A stretch of 64,000 nt of DNA from Flavobacteriaceae bacterium. Lineage in GTDB: Bacteria; Bacteroidota; Bacteroidia; Flavobacteriales; Flavobacteriaceae. Positions 1,183 through 20,117 of this stretch are shown here, piece by piece. Below the pieces are notes generated by a model. It was not told the DNA's origin and made no database searches. It saw only the letters and a list, made by a program, of their open reading frames with translations. How positions within the stretch are numbered: the first letter of the stretch is position 1; the number at the start of each line of letters is the position of its first letter. Location of the stretch: the NCBI GenBank assembly GCA_024762795.1, contig JANTGS010000001.1, positions 30,711 through 94,710 on the forward strand, written 5' to 3'. The position numbers and the translations under genes are program-made.

Positions 1183-1929
1183 TTAAATAACTTTTGCCTC
1201 ATTGTGCAGCAGATCAACAAGTTCTCCAACATTTTCAGGATCAATTAATTTGCAGGTTGTGTTAACAACAGGCTTGTCAAATCGGATACTTTTACTGGTA
1301 TTTTCAAAAGCTACAGGTTCAATCACATTTAATGGTTTCTTTCTTGCCATCATAATTCCTCTCATATTAGGTATGCGAAGGTCTTTATCTTCTACGAGCC
1401 CTTTTTGTCCGCCAAACACCATGGGTAATTCGGTTTCCAATACTTCTTTACCACCATCGATCTCACGGGTTACGGTTGCCTTGTTACCTTCTACTTCAAT
1501 ACCGATACAGGCATTTACAAAATTGTAATCCAAAATAGAAGCGGTGAGTCCGGGTACCATACCACCATTGTAATCGATAGATTCCTTGCCGGCCATGATC
1601 AGATCGTAATTACCATTTTTAGCTACTTCAGCCAGTTGTTTGGCTACAAAGAAACCGTCTTCAGGTTCAGCATTAACTCTTATGGCATCATCGGCACCAA
1701 TCGCAAGGGCCTTTCTTAAAGTAGGTTCGGTACTTACATTTCCTACATTGACAACAGTAACTGTTGCCCCTTGTTTTTCTTTAAACCACATGGCTCTGGT
1801 CAGCACGAATTCATCGTGTGGATTTATCACAAACTGAACACCATTCGAATCGAATTTGGTGTCGTTATCTTTAAAATTAATCTTTGAAGTCGTATCAGGT
1901 ACGTGACTTATACATACTAATATTTTCAT
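1183..1929 (-). CDS. etfB: Electron transfer flavoprotein subunit beta
   Basis: 248-aa ORF starting MKILVCISHVPDTTSKI; EtfB signature region VTREIDGGKEVLETELP. Confidence 0.95.
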   Translation of the reverse strand: MKILVCISHVPDTTSKINFKDNDTKFDSNGVQFVINPHDEFVLTRAMWFKEKQGATVTVVNVGNVSTEPTLRKALAIGADDAIRVNAEPEDGFFVAKQLAEVAKNGNYDLIMAGKESIDYNGGMVPGLTASILDYNFVNACIGIEVEGNKATVTREIDGGKEVLETELPMVFGGQKGLVEDKDLRIPNMRGIMMARKKPLNVIEPVAFENTSKSIRFDKPVVNTTCKLIDPENVGELVDLLHNEAKVI

Positions 1930-3385: not shown

Positions 3386-4282
3386 GTGATTAAAAATGGC
3401 GATAAAAATATATTAGAATTACTTGAAATTGAGTCAGGGTTCAGTATTCTGAAGATTAATAATGATCAGGATTCCGTTTATGAATATATAAGAGATTGTA
3501 AACGGGACATTATACAATTTCATTTTTCTTTAAAAGATCAGGCTTTACTTCTTTTTAATCATGGTTCCTATTCAGTTCCGGTTAATAAGGATACTTCTTT
3601 GATGTTGTACAACCCCCAAAAAGTTCTGCCCTTTCATCTCCATCTTGAACCTCATTCTAAATATTTAGCCTTACTGATATCAATAGAAAAATTTCATTCA
3701 TTTTTCACATTGGAGTCCGGACTTATCCAGTTTCTGAATGAGGAAAATAGAAGCAAACATTTTTATAAAGAAAAAGATCTTGAATCCAATGAAATAGTTG
3801 TTTTAAATCAGATCTTTAATAACAACTTACACAATTCACTGGAAAAATTGTATTCAAAAGGAAAGGTCTTTGAGCTGCTTAGTCTGTATTTTAACCCGTC
3901 TTCTAAAGAAGAAGCCCAACAATGCCCTTTTTTAGAAGATGATGAGAATGTAGAAAAGATCAGAAAGGCCAAGAATATACTTATTGAAAATATGTCAAAT
4001 CCGCCGGGGCTAAGTAATTTATCCTATCAGGTAAACCTTCCGCTGCAACTTTTAAAGGACGGATTTAAACAGGTTTATGGTAATACCGCCTATTCTTATT
4101 TGTTAAATTACAAACTGGAACATGCACGAAAACTTTTATTAAGCGGAAAATATAATGTTGCAGAAACAAGTTTTGAGGTGGGTTACAGTACACCAAGTCA
4201 TTTTATTGCAGCCTTTAAAAAGAAATACGGAGTAACTCCTAAAAGATATTTTAAGAGCATCAAAAAAGCCGTCCGGAATTAA
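3386..4282 (+). CDS. AraC-family transcriptional regulator
   Basis: C-terminal AraC HTH (ARKLLLSGKYNVAETSFEVGYSTPSHFIAAFKKKYGVTPKRYF). Confidence 0.85.
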   Translation: MIKNGDKNILELLEIESGFSILKINNDQDSVYEYIRDCKRDIIQFHFSLKDQALLLFNHGSYSVPVNKDTSLMLYNPQKVLPFHLHLEPHSKYLALLISIEKFHSFFTLESGLIQFLNEENRSKHFYKEKDLESNEIVVLNQIFNNNLHNSLEKLYSKGKVFELLSLYFNPSSKEEAQQCPFLEDDENVEKIRKAKNILIENMSNPPGLSNLSYQVNLPLQLLKDGFKQVYGNTAYSYLLNYKLEHARKLLLSGKYNVAETSFEVGYSTPSHFIAAFKKKYGVTPKRYFKSIKKAVRN

Positions 4283-12138: not shown

Positions 12139-13674
12139 ATGTCTATGATTAAAAAAGATGCACTTTTTTTATTGATTAAATCATTATCCAAATCGGAAAA
12201 AAGACAATTTAAACTCTATGCAGGCAGATTAGGGGTAAATGCAGAAAAGAATTTTATGGCCTTATTTATGGTGCTGGATCGTCTTGATGAATTTGATGAA
12301 AGCATAATTCTGAAACGCACTAATATTAAAAAACAACAATTATCCAATGCCAAAGCGCATTTGTACAAACAGATCCTGATCAGTTTAAGACTGAACCCTG
12401 CACATCAAAGCACAAAAGTACAGATTAGGGAACAACTCGATTTTGCTTCGATCTTATATTATAAAGGATTGCATAAGCAAAGTCTAAAAGTTCTTGAAAA
12501 GGCAAAACATCTGGCCATGAACAATTTTGAGAATAATCTGGCCTTTGAGATTGTTGAGCTTGAAAAAGTTATTGAATCACAGTATATTACCCGAAGTTTG
12601 CAGTCGAGAGCTGATGATCTGACACGACAATCGGAAGATTTGAGTAACAAAACCCTTATCTTAAGTGAGTTGTCAAATCTATCCCTGCAGTTGTACGGAC
12701 TTCTGTTGAAAAAGGGTTATGTTAGAAATGATGAGGATTATCAGAATATTAAAGAGTTCTTTCACTCAAAAATACCAGATTATCAATTAGATCAACTTGG
12801 ATTTAAAGAAAAGCTATACTTGAATAAGGCATATCTGTGGTATAATTTTATCATTCAGGAGTTTGTTTCCTGTTATAAGTATTCGCAAAGGTGGGTAGAT
12901 CTGTTTACTGCCAATCCTCAAATGAAAAAGACCAATCCTGTTTTTTATCTAAAGGGAATCAATTATCTGCTTGAATCACTTTTTCTGATCAAACATTCGG
13001 TAAAATTTGAAGAGGTTTTAAATAACTTTAAGGTAGAGTACAAAGATAAAAAATCATTTACCAACGAAAATACAAAATCGTTGGCCACACTAACCTATTA
13101 CCAAAACAAACTGAATTTATATTTTCTTAAAGGAGAATTTACTGAAGGTACTAAATTTGTACCCAAGGTTTTACAAAAACTTAAATACATAGAACAAACT
13201 TTCGATGAGCATCATATCATGGTTTTTTATTATAAGATTGCCAGTATGTATTTTGGTGCTCAGGATAATGATTTGTGTATTTTTTATCTGGGTAAGATTA
13301 TTAACAACAGAGATTTGAAAATGCGTGAGGACTTATTGTGTTTTAGCAGAATACTGAATCTGGTAGCACACTATGAAGCCGGTTATGATCAAAATCTTGA
13401 CGCTCTGATCAAATCAACCTATAAATTCCTGATCAAGATGGATGACATGCATATCGTTCAGAAAAAGATTATGACTTTTTTAAGAAAACTGGGTTCTATT
13501 TATCCGCATGAGATCAAGGCAGCTTTTAAGGAATTGTATGATGAATTAAAGGTATTTGAAAATCATCCTTACGAAAAAAGATCATTTATGTATCTCGATA
13601 TTTTATCCTGGTTAGAGAGTAAAATTCAGGGAATTCCGGTTGAATCTATTATTAAGAATAAATTAAATAAGTAA
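12139..13674 (+). CDS. Conserved hypothetical protein (helical, repeat-rich)
   Basis: 511-aa ORF with consistent coding character; no recognisable domain. Confidence 0.75.
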   Translation: MSMIKKDALFLLIKSLSKSEKRQFKLYAGRLGVNAEKNFMALFMVLDRLDEFDESIILKRTNIKKQQLSNAKAHLYKQILISLRLNPAHQSTKVQIREQLDFASILYYKGLHKQSLKVLEKAKHLAMNNFENNLAFEIVELEKVIESQYITRSLQSRADDLTRQSEDLSNKTLILSELSNLSLQLYGLLLKKGYVRNDEDYQNIKEFFHSKIPDYQLDQLGFKEKLYLNKAYLWYNFIIQEFVSCYKYSQRWVDLFTANPQMKKTNPVFYLKGINYLLESLFLIKHSVKFEEVLNNFKVEYKDKKSFTNENTKSLATLTYYQNKLNLYFLKGEFTEGTKFVPKVLQKLKYIEQTFDEHHIMVFYYKIASMYFGAQDNDLCIFYLGKIINNRDLKMREDLLCFSRILNLVAHYEAGYDQNLDALIKSTYKFLIKMDDMHIVQKKIMTFLRKLGSIYPHEIKAAFKELYDELKVFENHPYEKRSFMYLDILSWLESKIQGIPVESIIKNKLNK

Positions 13675-13680
13675 AAAGGA

Positions 13681-14517
13681 ATGTATAAGTCTGTTTTACA
13701 AACACTCTTGCTTATTTTTTATTACAGTTTTTCTATAGCTCAGATCTTAAATATTCCACCAAGAAATCAAGCAGATAAGAATGGAAGTCAGATAATCAGT
13801 GATATTAGGAATATGCCATTGGATGAGCGAGAAGACTTTATTTTTAAAGAAGTATCAAAGGGCAATATACCTGTTTTTTACAGAAAGATGTCTGCTGTTG
13901 CTGATAGTGCACTCATTGATGGAGAATACAAACATATTGTTTACTATGTAATCCCTGATTATTTAGCTTTAGGCAGCAATCATAATTATTTTCTGTGTCC
14001 GATGAGCCCAATTTTAGGACAAAAAATTGCAAATAAACTTAATTGCACTTTACCTACCCGGAAAATGGTAAATCAAATATGGAATGCTGCGACAGTTAAA
14101 ATAAGACCGGAACCCATTCCTCCGGGTCCTGAAATGACAACAATTCCTGTTTTTGCCATTCACAATTCGATGGTTTGGGATGCACGCCGAAACTTTCTTT
14201 CTGAGAATCCTTTAGGTTCTTTGGTAAGTGGAAATAAAAAAGATGTGGTTATCAGTAATTTAATCTATAGTTCATCACCTCCCGGAAGAGTCGTTATCTA
14301 TGGCTGGCATGATGTCTCAGGCAAAAACATCCAGCCACTATATGCCGGACACTCTGATAATTATGCCGATTATAGTCATGGAATCAGATTAATACAAAAC
14401 GAAGTGTATGTAGATGGAGATACATTGCAGGTAAAAGATGTGTTAATGTCACCAAAATTAAACTTGTTATTAAGTGATGAAGGTGTTATTTCTGCTCCTT
14501 ATTATCCCATCAAGTAA
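13681..14517 (+). CDS. Hypothetical secreted protein
   Basis: 278 aa, N-terminal signal peptide; motif YGWHDVSGKNIQPLYAGHSDNYADYSHGIRLI. Confidence 0.7.
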   Translation: MYKSVLQTLLLIFYYSFSIAQILNIPPRNQADKNGSQIISDIRNMPLDEREDFIFKEVSKGNIPVFYRKMSAVADSALIDGEYKHIVYYVIPDYLALGSNHNYFLCPMSPILGQKIANKLNCTLPTRKMVNQIWNAATVKIRPEPIPPGPEMTTIPVFAIHNSMVWDARRNFLSENPLGSLVSGNKKDVVISNLIYSSSPPGRVVIYGWHDVSGKNIQPLYAGHSDNYADYSHGIRLIQNEVYVDGDTLQVKDVLMSPKLNLLLSDEGVISAPYYPIK

Positions 14518-14590: not shown

Positions 14591-14598
14591 TATATTTG
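14591..14598 (+). promoter_or_regulatory. Candidate -7 box of the ilv operon promoter (TATATTTG)
   Basis: Exact match to the Bacteroidota TAnnTTTG -7 consensus, 28 nt before the leader ORF; no convincing -33 element seen. Confidence 0.5.
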
Positions 14599-14626
14599 CT
14601 CAGTTAAATATTTACTCAAATAAAAA

Positions 14627-14698
14627 ATGAATATTTTAGGTTTAAATATCAACACTATTATTTCCATTATTATTCTTTCGAATAAGCATAGGAGGTAG
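14627..14698 (+). CDS. ilv leader peptide MNILGLNINTIISIIILSNKHRR
   Basis: 23 codons: 7 Ile and 3 Leu, including I-I-S-I-I-I-L; followed by an intrinsic terminator and then ilvB. Confidence 0.85.
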   Translation: MNILGLNINTIISIIILSNKHRR

Positions 14699-14724
14699 TT
14701 TGATATTTAATACATCAGCGAAGG

Positions 14725-14752
14725 CTTCCTAATTTTTAGGAAGTTTTTTTTT
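14725..14752 (+). terminator. Attenuator terminator of the ilv operon
   Basis: Perfect 8-bp stem CTTCCTAA-TTT-TTAGGAAG followed by 9 T. Confidence 0.88.
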
Positions 14753-14815
14753 GTTTTAAACTTTGTAAATATAAAAAGTTAACACATTGAAACATAGTAA
14801 AATAAGGTGAGTTGA

Positions 14816-14986
14816 TATGTATTGGATGTTGTAAAAAAACAGATAAGTAAAAATAAGGGTGGAGATGGCTTTTTATTTTTGGAGTTAATTCTACAAGAAT
14901 TGAACAGTTGGCCTAATGTTTATACAGGTACACTAAAAGGGACTGAAGTAATTAAGATTAGCAACGAGAAATATCTCAAGGAATAA
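14816..14986 (+). other. Small open frame without ATG (possible gene remnant)
   Basis: YVLDVVKKQISKNKGGDGFLFLELILQELNSWPNVYTGTLKGTEVIKISNEKYLKE* between the attenuator and ilvB; the frame opens after a TGA. Confidence 0.35.
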
Positions 14987-14997
14987 ATATTATAGGT

Positions 14998-16752
14998 ATG
15001 GAAACAATAACCAAAACAAAATTACCTGAGAAGGAGGTAAAACAAGAGTTTAAAAAGGAAACTACTGTCAAAATTCAAGGCTCTGAAGCTGTTGTCAGAA
15101 GTTTGATCGAAGAAGGCGCTGATTTGATTTTCGGGTATCCGGGTGGAGCTATCATGCCTGTTTATGATGAATTTTATAAAGTTCAGGATAAGATTCATCA
15201 CGTGCTTACCCGTCATGAACAGGGTGCAATTCACGCTGCTCAGGGTTTTGCCAGATCTTCAGGAAAAGTAGGGGTTGTTATTGCAACATCAGGTCCCGGG
15301 GCTACCAACTTGATAACCGGTATAGCTGATGCTCAGATCGATTCAACTCCGCTGGTATGTATTACCGGGCAGGTAGGATCAAATTTACTGGGAAGTGATG
15401 CTTTTCAGGAAACTGATGTTGTAAGTATTTCCACACCGGTTACCAAATGGAATTATCAGGTTACAAAAGCCTCTGAGATCCCTGCAGTGATTGCCAAGGC
15501 ATTTTATATTGCCAAATCCGGTCGTCCGGGTCCGGTATTGATCGATATTACAAAAGATGCTCAGTTTGAAGAATTCGATTTCAGTTATAAAAAATGTGAA
15601 AAAATAAGAAGTTATCATCCCGTGCCAAAAATGGATCCTGAAAAGGTGAAGGAAGCTGCTGATATGATCAATAAAGCTAAAAAACCCTTTGTGGTCTTTG
15701 GACAGGGAGTTGTTTTGGCTCAGGCAGAAAAGGAATTTAAGGATTTTATAGAAAAAGCTGATATTCCTGCTGCTTCCACATTATTAGGCCTTTCGGCATT
15801 ACCCACTGATCACAATCTAAATATGGGAATGGTAGGAATGCACGGTCATTATGCTCCTAATGTGCTTACCAACGAATGCGATGTACTTATTGCTATTGGT
15901 ATGCGTTTTGACGATCGGGTAACCGGCAGCCTGGATACTTATGCCAAACAGGCAAAGATTATTCATTTTGATATTGATCCAGCCGAAATAGATAAGAATG
16001 TAAAAACCGATATCGCTGTTTTGGGTACTGTAAAGGAAACTCTGGCAGAACTTATTCCGATGATTGATAAGAATAAAAATCAGAAATGGCATCAGGAATT
16101 CCATGATCTTAGAAAAATTGAATACGATCGAATCATTCATCCGCAAACTAAACCTACTCAGGAAAAATTAACCATGGGAGAGGTAATAGCGGCCGTTAAT
16201 GAACAAACTAACGGGGATGCTATTCTCGTTTCGGATGTTGGACAAAATCAAATGATGACCAGCCGTTACGGTAAATTCAACACTACAAAAAGCAAGATCA
16301 CATCGGGTGGGCTTGGAACCATGGGATTTGGATTACCTGCTGCCATGGGGGCAAAATTAGGGCGTCCGGACAGAGAAGTGGTTGCTTTTATCGGTGATGG
16401 AGGTTTTCAAATGACCATTCAGGAACTGGGAACCATTATGCAAACAAAAATTCCGGTGAAGATCGTTGTGCTAAACAATGAATTCTTAGGAATGGTAAGA
16501 CAATGGCAGGAACTTTTCTTTGATCGTCGATATGCATCAACTGTAATGACCAATCCGGATTTTGTTAAGATTGTTGAAGGTTATGGAATCAAAGCTCAAA
16601 GGGTTTCAAAAAGGGAAAACCTGAAAGATGCCATCGCCGATATGATCGCATCAGAAGATGCATATTTTGTTGAGGTTATTGTAGAAAAAGAAGAAAATGT
16701 ATTCCCAATGATACCTTCAGGAGCTTCTGTTTCTGATGTAAGATTAAAATAA
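14998..16752 (+). CDS. ilvB: Acetolactate synthase large subunit
   Basis: 584 aa; ThDP enzyme: LIFGYPGGAIMPVYDEF, VAFIGDGGFQMTIQEL. Confidence 0.95.
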   Translation: METITKTKLPEKEVKQEFKKETTVKIQGSEAVVRSLIEEGADLIFGYPGGAIMPVYDEFYKVQDKIHHVLTRHEQGAIHAAQGFARSSGKVGVVIATSGPGATNLITGIADAQIDSTPLVCITGQVGSNLLGSDAFQETDVVSISTPVTKWNYQVTKASEIPAVIAKAFYIAKSGRPGPVLIDITKDAQFEEFDFSYKKCEKIRSYHPVPKMDPEKVKEAADMINKAKKPFVVFGQGVVLAQAEKEFKDFIEKADIPAASTLLGLSALPTDHNLNMGMVGMHGHYAPNVLTNECDVLIAIGMRFDDRVTGSLDTYAKQAKIIHFDIDPAEIDKNVKTDIAVLGTVKETLAELIPMIDKNKNQKWHQEFHDLRKIEYDRIIHPQTKPTQEKLTMGEVIAAVNEQTNGDAILVSDVGQNQMMTSRYGKFNTTKSKITSGGLGTMGFGLPAAMGAKLGRPDREVVAFIGDGGFQMTIQELGTIMQTKIPVKIVVLNNEFLGMVRQWQELFFDRRYASTVMTNPDFVKIVEGYGIKAQRVSKRENLKDAIADMIASEDAYFVEVIVEKEENVFPMIPSGASVSDVRLK

Positions 16753-16759
16753 AAAGAAA

Positions 16760-17284
16760 ATGGAAAAACAATTATATACCATATCGGTTTACACCGAAAA
16801 TAATTTAGGTTTGTTGAACAGAATTGCAACAATCTTCCTGAAAAGACATGTCAATATCGAGAGTTTAACCGTTTCGAGTACAGAGATAGAGCATGTATCC
16901 CGTTTTATAATCGTTGCCTATATAACAGAGGATGAGGTCAAAAAAATAATAAAACAGATCGAGAAGCAAATTGAGGTGATCAAGGCCTTTTATCATACTA
17001 ATGATGAAGCTATTTACCTGCAATCGGCATTGTTTAAAGTGAAGTCAGAACTTTTGTTCGAAAAAAGGCAAATTCAGAATATCATTAAAAAGAGCAATGC
17101 CCGTATAGTTACGGTAAATCCCGAGTTCTTTGTCCTTGAGAAATCAGGAAGAAAAGAAGAAATTGAGGAACTTTATGATGGATTGGCTGAATATGGAATT
17201 ATGCAGTTTGTAAGATCCGGAAGAATCTCTGTAACCAAGGAAGAGATGAAAATAACCGAACTATTGGAAAAAGAATTAGTTTAA
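16760..17284 (+). CDS. ilvN: Acetolactate synthase small subunit (ACT domain)
   Basis: 174 aa; YTISVYTENNLGLLNRIATIFLKRHVNIESLTVS. Confidence 0.93.
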   Translation: MEKQLYTISVYTENNLGLLNRIATIFLKRHVNIESLTVSSTEIEHVSRFIIVAYITEDEVKKIIKQIEKQIEVIKAFYHTNDEAIYLQSALFKVKSELLFEKRQIQNIIKKSNARIVTVNPEFFVLEKSGRKEEIEELYDGLAEYGIMQFVRSGRISVTKEEMKITELLEKELV

Positions 17285-17302: not shown

Positions 17303-18778
17303 ATGACAAATTATTTTAATACACTGCCGCTAAGAGAACAACTGGAACAGTTGGGAAAATGCAGATTTATGGATGCTTCTGAATTCTCAGATGGAGTTTC
17401 CGCACTAAAAGGAAAAAAAATAGTAATTGTAGGTTGTGGTGCACAGGGACTCAATCAGGGCTTGAATATGCGTGATTCAGGACTTGATATAAGTTACGCC
17501 CTTAGGGAAGGAGCCATTGCAGAAAAAAGACAATCGTACAAAAATGCTATAGAAAATGATTTTAAGGTGGGAACCTATAAGGAAATGATCCCATCTGCTG
17601 ATCTGGTTTGTAATCTTACACCGGATAAACAACATACTTCAGTTATCAGTGCCATTATGCCATTGATGAAAAAAGGAGCCGCATTGTCTTACTCCCATGG
17701 TTTTAATATTGTGGAAGAAGGAATGCAGGTAAGAAAAGATCTTACAGTGATCATGGTGGCCCCCAAGTCGCCTGGATCAGAAGTTAGGGAAGAATACAAA
17801 CGTGGTTTTGGCGTTCCTACCCTGATTGCTGTTCACCCTGAAAATGATCCGGAAGGTAAAGGTCTGGATTATGCAAAAGCTTATGCCGTTGCCACAGGAG
17901 GTGATAAGGCAGGTGTACTGGAATCTTCTTTTGTTGCAGAGGTAAAATCCGATCTGATGGGAGAACAAACCATTCTTTGTGGCGTATTACAAACCGGATC
18001 TATTTTGAGTTTTGATAAAATGATCGAAAAAGGAATTGAGCCGGGATATGCGGCCAAACTGGTACAATACGGATGGGAAACCATTACTGAGGCGCTGAAA
18101 CATGGGGGAATTACCAACATGATGGATCGTCTTTCAAATCCTGCTAAGATCAAAGCCTTTGAGCTGGCTGAAGAACTGAAAGAGATCATGAAACCATTGT
18201 TTAACAAGCATATGGATGATATCATGTCGGGAGAATTCTCAAAAACCATGATGGAAGACTGGGGAAATGATGATAAAGATCTGCTAAAATGGAGAGCTGC
18301 TACAGGAGAAACTGCTTTTGAAAAAACTGAGGCAATCGATAAAGAGATCCCCGAACAGGAATATTTTGATCATGGTGTATTACTGGTGGCTTTTGTAAAA
18401 GCAGGTGTTGAGCTGGCTTTTGAAACCATGACAGATTCAGGAATTATAGAAGAATCAGCTTATTATGAATCTTTACATGAAACCCCTCTTATTGCCAATA
18501 CCATTGCACGTAAGAAATTGTATGAAATGAACAGAACTATCTCTGATACAGCAGAGTACGGATGTTATCTGTTCGATCATGCCTGTCAGCCACTTTTAGG
18601 CGATTTTATGAAAAAGATCGATACGGATGTGATTGGTAAAAAATATGCTGCTGATAAAGATAACGGAGTAGATAATCAGCAATTGATCGCCGTAAATGAA
18701 ATCATTCGTTACCATCCGGTTGAGGTTGTAGGTTATGAATTGAGAGAAGCGATGACTGCCATGACTAAGGTTGTTTAG
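17303..18778 (+). CDS. ilvC: Ketol-acid reductoisomerase (long, class II form)
   Basis: 491 aa; [32 protein letters not shown]. Confidence 0.95.
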
Positions 18779-18857: not shown

Positions 18858-20117
18858 ATGATCACTACAAAGAACATAATATCCTTAGATGAGATCAGAA
18901 AGGCTCAGAAAAATATCAAAGACCTGGTAAGGCACACCCCTTTGATCAAAATGCAGCTTTTCTCAGAAAGATACCAATCAGATATTTTCTTTAAAAGAGA
19001 AGACTTACAACGGGTACGATCTTATAAAATCCGTGGAGCTTTTAACAAGATCAAATCTTTGGTTGATGCTGAAAAAATTGAGTCTGTGGTTTGTGCCAGT
19101 GCAGGAAATCATGCCCAGGGTGTCGCCCAGGCTTGTCATTTTTTAAATATTTCAGGGGTTATTTTTATGCCTTCCACAACGCCTATGCAAAAGATCAGAC
19201 AGGTGGAAATGTTTGGCAGGGATAATGTCGAGATCAGATTGTCCGGAGATACTTTTGATGCATCATACGCTATTGCGAAAGCGTATTCTGAAAAGGAAAA
19301 CATAGCTTTTGTGCATCCTTTTGATGATGAGCTGATCATTGCCGGACAAGGAACCCTTGCTATGGAAATACTCGAAGATTCAAATCAAGCCATTGATTAT
19401 ATTTTTGTTCCTGTAGGAGGGGGCGGACTCGCATCGGGAATTATAAGTGTTTTTAAGGAATTGAGTCCTGAAACTAAGATCATCGGCGTAGAGCCTGAAG
19501 GAGCGCCATCGTTAAAAACTTCTTTGGAAAAAGGAGAAAATACAGAATTGTCCTCGATCAATAAATTTGTGGATGGAGCTGCAGTTAAAAAAATGGGAGA
19601 TAAGACCTTTGCCATTTGCAGGGAGTTTATTGATGATGTTATTACCATTCCGGAGGGAAAAGTATGCAGCACGTTATTAAAACTTTACAATGAAAAGGCT
19701 ATTGTGGTTGAACCGGCCGGGGCATTATCGGTAGCGGCACTGGATGTTTACCAGGAAAAGATCAAAGGAAAAACAGCAGTGAGTGTGATCAGTGGAGGTA
19801 ACAATGATATTACCCGTATGGAAGAGATCAAGGAAAGGGCATTGCTTTTTGAAGGGCTAAAACATTATTTTATAGTTCCCTTTCCGCAAAGGGCGGGAGC
19901 TTTAAAAGAATTTGTGGTAGATGTGTTGGGAGAGAATGATGATATTACCTTTTTTGAATATACAAAGAAAAGCAGCAGAACAACAGGTTCGGCGGTTGTA
20001 GGTATAGAATTAAAATCTAAAGAAGATTTTGATCCTTTGGTCAAAAGGATGGAAGAAAAAGGGTTTTTAGGAGAATATCTGAATGATAACCCGCAATTGT
20101 TCCAGTTTTTAATATAG
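18858..20117 (+). CDS. ilvA: Threonine ammonia-lyase (dehydratase)
   Basis: 419 aa; KREDLQRVRSYKIRGAFNKI, PVGGGGLASGI; C-terminal ACT-like region. Confidence 0.93.
   Translation: MITTKNIISLDEIRKAQKNIKDLVRHTPLIKMQLFSERYQSDIFFKREDLQRVRSYKIRGAFNKIKSLVDAEKIESVVCASAGNHAQGVAQACHFLNISGVIFMPSTTPMQKIRQVEMFGRDNVEIRLSGDTFDASYAIAKAYSEKENIAFVHPFDDELIIAGQGTLAMEILEDSNQAIDYIFVPVGGGGLASGIISVFKELSPETKIIGVEPEGAPSLKTSLEKGENTELSSINKFVDGAAVKKMGDKTFAICREFIDDVITIPEGKVCSTLLKLYNEKAIVVEPAGALSVAALDVYQEKIKGKTAVSVISGGNNDITRMEEIKERALLFEGLKHYFIVPFPQRAGALKEFVVDVLGENDDITFFEYTKKSSRTTGSAVVGIELKSKEDFDPLVKRMEEKGFLGEYLNDNPQLFQFLI

Follow-up and report, generated by a model that had tools for sequence, protein, structure and literature searches.

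A putative ribosome-mediated attenuator of the ilvBNC-ilvA operon and related leader-terminator modules in Flavobacteriaceae

The region upstream of ilvB in the window (the entire 64,000-nt stretch of DNA from a Flavobacteriaceae bacterium analyzed here) very likely encodes a transcription attenuator, operated by the ribosome, that controls the ilvBNC-ilvA operon, judging from the sequence and its comparison with relatives. The original prediction, that the ilv genes are controlled by attenuation via a translated leader, is supported by conservation, by controls and by co-varying pairings: the alternative RNA pairings that such a mechanism requires were overlooked at that stage, but they exist and co-vary.

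Leader, terminator and alternative pairings upstream of ilvB

All features described below are on the forward strand. The element denoted P1 (TATATTTG, 14591-14598) matches the Bacteroidota-type -7 promoter motif TAnnTTTG and lies 28 nt 5' of the leader start codon; it has no clear -33 element, and a sigma-70 scan, which is not suited to Bacteroidota, found no promoter. The leader ORF (14627-14698; ATG at 14627, TAG at 14696-14698) consists of 23 codons and encodes the peptide MNILGLNINTIISIIILSNKHRR, with seven Ile codons (six ATT and one ATC), three Leu codons (TTA, TTA and CTT) and no Val codons. The putative regulatory codons, ATT ATT TCC ATT ATT ATT CTT, occupy positions 14657-14677, and their RNA doubles as segment 1 (14657-14667) of the pairings described below. 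Downstream is an intrinsic terminator hairpin (segments 3:4, 14720-14748) with a perfect 8-bp core (14725-14743) formed by CTTCCTAA and TTAGGAAG (14725-14732 and 14736-14743) around a TTT loop; the stem reaches 14720-14748 once the weaker A-U and G-U pairs are counted. A tract of nine T (14744-14752) directly follows the hairpin core. Thus, the -7-like element, the Ile-rich ORF and its codon run, all proposed in the original prediction, were confirmed base by base, as were the perfect 8-bp hairpin with nine T and the location of ilvBNC downstream, to which ilvA is to be added.

The genes that follow are ilvB, the regulated gene, encoding the acetolactate synthase large subunit (14998-16752), and, as read from the sequence, ilvN (acetolactate synthase small subunit, 16760-17284), ilvC (ketol-acid reductoisomerase, 17303-18778) and ilvA (threonine deaminase, the first Ile-specific step, 18858-20117). 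The ilvD gene of this genome is located elsewhere, on another contig (L051); a candidate leader upstream of it was rejected, being only a weak TTG-started ORF with a mixed run. The divergently oriented leuA (11989) has neither a Leu leader nor a terminator in the 117-149 nt upstream. In the window, a 278-aa ORF (13681-14517) is located between a 511-aa ORF (12139-13674) and the leader; the 278-aa ORF is missing at this position in the same-genus relatives, and in one of them, L002, the leader directly follows the 511-aa ORF.

The combination of leader ORF and terminator is far beyond chance expectation. The folding energy of the leader RNA (14603-14755) is -36.8 kcal/mol, compared with -18.5 ± 3.0 in shuffled sequences (z = -6.0; 0/200 shuffles), and when both strands of the 64 kb were scanned for mini-ORFs followed by terminators, this leader was the sole match with a single-residue run. 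Apart from it, the scan gave just one match rich in Ile, Leu and Val (ILV), at 4155, which overlaps a long ORF.

In the minimum-energy fold, the Ile codons (14657-14667) pair with the AGGAGG region (14688-14699), forming a 1:2 hairpin that is extended by pairing of 14642-14652 with 14700-14710. Segment 2, the 5' arm of the antiterminator (UAGGAGGU, 14689-14696), spans the last two codons of the leader and the first base of the stop codon, and pairs with GCUUCCUA (14724-14731) in the 5' arm of the terminator. This 1:2, 2:3 and 3:4 arrangement is the textbook layout of a ribosome attenuator. The energies of the competing structures in the window are close, -10.6 for the antiterminator versus about -13 for the terminator. 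Taken alone, the antiterminator duplex of the window is only marginally above shuffled sequences (p = 0.05), and the case for it therefore rests on the relatives.

The observed parts are conserved and their alternative pairings co-vary; from this, we infer a start site, translation of the leader, termination and an amino acid response as follows. Transcription would start just 3' of TATATTTG, with immediate translation of the leader ORF. With an ample supply of Ile-tRNA, and probably of Leu-tRNA, the ribosome would reach the stop codon and mask AGGAGG, so that the terminator forms and transcription ends in the U-tract near 14752. Under a shortage of charged Ile-tRNA, the ribosome would stall in the Ile run, opening the 1:2 hairpin and leaving AGGAGG free 11-14 nt ahead; AGGAGG would then pair with CUUCCU of the terminator 5' arm, and this duplex would block the terminator, allowing RNA polymerase to continue into ilvB. 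If the leader is not translated, AGGAGG would be sequestered in the 1:2 hairpin, and the terminator would form.

Conservation in the genus and across Flavobacteriaceae

The leader ORF, the Ile run and the terminator are retained ahead of ilvB in four of the five other genomes of the same genus, with the leader peptides MNILGLNISTIISIIILSNKNRK, MNKFNIYSILIISIIISIKGG, MNNYKIYSILIISIIMSLWG and MNNYKIYSILISLWGG. All four relatives carry a GGAGG-like segment at the end of the leader and a CTTCC...GGAAG hairpin followed by 7-9 T. The nearest relative has TGA in place of the TAG stop codon and AGGAAG in place of AGGAGG, but the pairing with CUUCCU is retained. At the position of P1, three relatives (L002, L004 and L005) have TACATTTG or TATTTTTG, and L003 has the weaker TACATTTA. 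Because the upstream gene differs among the members of the genus, the leader-terminator unit belongs to ilvB. In the fifth genome (L006), the leader ORF is gone and a mismatched terminator remnant follows an unrelated gene, possibly a natural loss.

In most Flavobacteriaceae, ilvD heads the operon, and the module is located 5' of ilvD. We defined the module, under strict criteria and with ATG starts, as an ILV-rich mini-ORF that ends 19-37 nt 5' of a terminator. Such modules were detected in 44 of the 114 ilvD upstream regions drawn, whereas the reverse strand yielded none and shuffled sequences 0.15; under these criteria, more than half of the 114 regions lack a module. Control residue classes other than branched-chain ones yielded 0-6 matches (28 for the overlapping class I, L, F), and the same scan recovers ilvL of E. 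coli, which served as the positive control. Thus, the expectation that related Flavobacteriia share an ILV-rich short ORF with a terminator held with strand and shuffle controls. The genera with modules include Lutibacter, Tenacibaculum, Flavobacterium, Mangrovimonas, Algibacter, Polaribacter, Maribacter, Zobellia and Aquimarina, and clear modules are also present at three loci (L308-L310) that belong to other families within the class. A TAnnTTTG motif is present 5' of the first leader in 22 of the 88 loci, compared with 8.9 ± 2.65 in shuffles.

The modules fall into two sequence types, A, with a CCTTCC terminator, and B, with a CCTGTATCA terminator. At 12 loci (L033, L040, L079, L181, L207, L089, L096, L101, L107, L110, L116 and L118), two complete Ile/Val leader-terminator units are arranged in series upstream of ilvD, as a rule, type A followed by type B, whereas the window has a single unit. 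The second ATG lies 5-46 nt past the first terminator; a promoter would hardly fit, if at all, between the units, so that the second unit is probably reached by read-through. One of these loci, L118, also has a SAM-II riboswitch (Rfam, 64.1 bits) on the other strand upstream of the ilv locus (positions 1653-1712, minus strand).

The relatives provide the evidence for the antiterminator. Across 103 distinct modules, the pairing of each module's own arms (-8.70 kcal/mol) is stronger than that of permuted arms (-6.77 kcal/mol; 0/2000 permutations). The difference holds for type A modules alone (-7.81 versus -7.11; 0/2000), and the co-variation of the arms is non-significant for type B modules alone (170/2000 permutations). 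In an anchored comparison of 64 type A plus other modules, 89% of the cells in the first six antiterminator pairs are paired, compared with 69% after permutation; here the arms were placed by the best duplex, which favors pairing, and the 103-module permutation, which re-optimises every duplex, is the fairer test. These six pairs include G-C, A-U, U-A and C-G, with several types per position. Striking cases are GCCATCT with AGATG in Christiangramia (L142) and CCTTCT with AGAAG in Polaribacter porphyrae (L134). The 1:2 pairing exceeds that in shuffled sequences at p<0.05 in 51% of the modules, with a shuffle control that does not preserve codons. By median, the antiterminator arm starts 16 nt past the final codon of the ILV run and 3 nt short of the stop codon end. 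Given a ribosome footprint of generally known size, this geometry suits both masking of segment 2 while a ribosome occupies the stop codon and its release upon stalling.

Analogous leaders precede other amino acid biosynthesis operons. Leaders with His runs, followed by terminators, were found before hisG at 27 of the 29 usable loci (among L228-L257), and leaders with the TWWW motif, also with terminators, before trpE at 26 of the 30 loci (L337-L366), including trpE of the window genome (L363), with the leader MRKQNLNTWWWTYRNKIS. No Thr/Ile leader was found before thrA (PF00742) at 20 loci, one of which is cut by a contig end. For ilv, his and trp, the enriched residue matches the product of the operon, which is not readily accounted for unless ribosomes stall at specific codons; leader-peptide attenuation looks general in Flavobacteriaceae.

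The original prediction held that Ile and Leu are sensed, the leader having no Val codons. The sensed residue is read here from codon content: the leaders of the window genus contain, in total, 31 Ile, 11 Leu and no Val codons. In the leaders of other genera, Ile and Val dominate and Leu is rare. Ile is thus the common denominator and would be the safe statement of the sensed amino acid; the inclusion of ilvA in the operon and the location of ilvD elsewhere would fit an Ile-centered signal.

Taken together, these leaders make it plausible, on balance, that the window represents one of a large, uncatalogued set of branched-chain amino acid attenuators in Flavobacteriaceae, of two types and, in some genera, arranged in series before ilvD, where they could provide a two-step, sharper or two-signal response. 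Under the same moderately confident reading, the his and trp leaders included, attenuation would be a main mode of amino acid gene control in a lineage that barely uses Shine-Dalgarno sequences.

The region downstream of the terminator and alternative explanations

The region between the terminator and ilvB contains a block, TATTGGATGTTGTAAA (14820-14835), that is kept in the genus and is a possible operator. A related block, TTGAAYATSATA, is located upstream of ilvD in other genera, the window form being weaker; the full block (TTGAAYATSATA...TTAAA...TGATAATCA...TTGAATTTA) is present in many genera at a near-fixed distance of about 230 nt before ilvD (L032-L227), with or without an attenuator. 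The possibility that this block is a conserved RNA structure was rejected, given that the consensus fold is empty. Further downstream, 3' of the attenuator, is a second TAnnTTTG motif, TATTTTTG (14874-14881), a candidate promoter denoted P2. The region with the block resembles a promoter or operator; should it act as a promoter, some of the transcription of the operon would bypass the attenuator.

Accordingly, the attenuator could be real but minor, with P2 or a DNA-binding regulator acting near 14820 dominating the control of the operon. Such dominance, which is compatible with the presence of the attenuator, seems unlikely but deserves consideration: a TAnnTTTG motif is present at the P2 position in all six members of the genus, including L006, which manages without a leader, and between the terminator and the first gene at 43 of the 80 loci, compared with 15.1 ± 3.2 in shuffles, and the conserved block upstream of ilvD is unstructured. 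However, no -33 element is evident at P2, and the selection acting on the leader and its pairings would be left unexplained.

Under a second, quite improbable alternative, the terminator switch is run by a protein or small molecule rather than by codon-specific stalling, and the ORF only couples translation. The terminator sequences of the two types, GCCTTCC and GCCTGTATCA, are indeed conserved between genera beyond what a bare hairpin needs, but this conservation is explained by the tie of the terminator arm to segment 2 and, thereby, to the coding segment 1; in addition, the leader residues follow the operon product in three pathways, and no riboswitch or leader of Rfam matches at threshold. 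Specifically, none of the Rfam amino acid leader families (His_leader RF00514, Phe_leader RF01859 and others) reached the gathering score in the window, where the best leader match was His_leader at 21.5 bits versus the cut-off of 49, and a relaxed threshold gave sub-threshold matches only; L033, L118, L041 and three his loci were also below the leader thresholds. No T-box or metabolite riboswitch was matched in the window by the same tool that detects SAM-II in L118.

The least probable explanation, that the hairpin merely terminates transcription of the preceding gene (13681-14517) and that the Ile-rich ORF arose by chance, can draw on the AT-richness of the region and on the hairpin remnant that directly follows an unrelated gene, without a leader, in L006, but is contradicted by the association of the unit with ilvB while the upstream gene varies in the genus, by the absence of ILV modules on the reverse strand and their near absence in shuffles, by the fit of residue to operon in the ilv, his and trp pathways, and by the co-variation of the antiterminator arms.

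Comparison with known systems

Classical attenuation is known mostly from Proteobacteria and Actinobacteria. For Flavobacterium psychrophilum, a member of the same family as the window genome, "strong clues" of leader-peptide attenuation before amino acid operons were reported in 2021 (PMC9723704); its main text names no operon, codon or structure, and ilv may or may not be one of those operons. In Bacteroides, leader-peptide-like sORFs have been mentioned (PMC7366714). A search of the literature on attenuation and leader peptides in Bacteroidetes found no paper on ilv leaders, and an earlier prediction may be contained in a 2010 comparative study (Lopatovskaya et al., as cited in PMC4833913). 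The mechanism itself is classical, and its operation at amino acid operons of flavobacteria was suggested before (PMC9723704); what seems to be new, within the searchable literature, is the explicit ilv structure, the family-wide co-variation and the tandem arrangement. The Flavobacteriaceae set of ilv, his and trp leaders, with its defined pairings and its natural single, tandem and lost variants, allows a direct test of whether transcription-translation coupling in Bacteroidota is tight enough for attenuation, and adds unannotated leader genes and candidate RNA families.

Initiation of translation in Bacteroidota rarely uses Shine-Dalgarno pairing. The window shares with the ilvL leader of the E. 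coli ilvGMEDA operon a leader rich in branched-chain residues, a terminator about 20 nt past the stop codon and alternative hairpins. However, the 32 codons of ilvL include those for Leu, Val and Ile, whereas the window leader has 23 codons with Ile, some Leu and no Val, lacks a Shine-Dalgarno sequence, the upstream region being A-rich, and has its antiterminator arm over the leader stop codon.

The ilvBNC attenuator of C. glutamicum (PMC11857589), compared here by its description, controls the same genes under a three-hairpin leader model, in a different phylum. In the mgtCBR leader of Salmonella (PMC3641672), two leader ORFs follow one another, as they do at the twelve tandem ilv loci but not in the window, whose leader is single. 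The mgtCBR leaders sense ATP and proline, whereas both leaders of the tandem ilv loci are rich in Ile and Val, and each is followed by its own intrinsic terminator.
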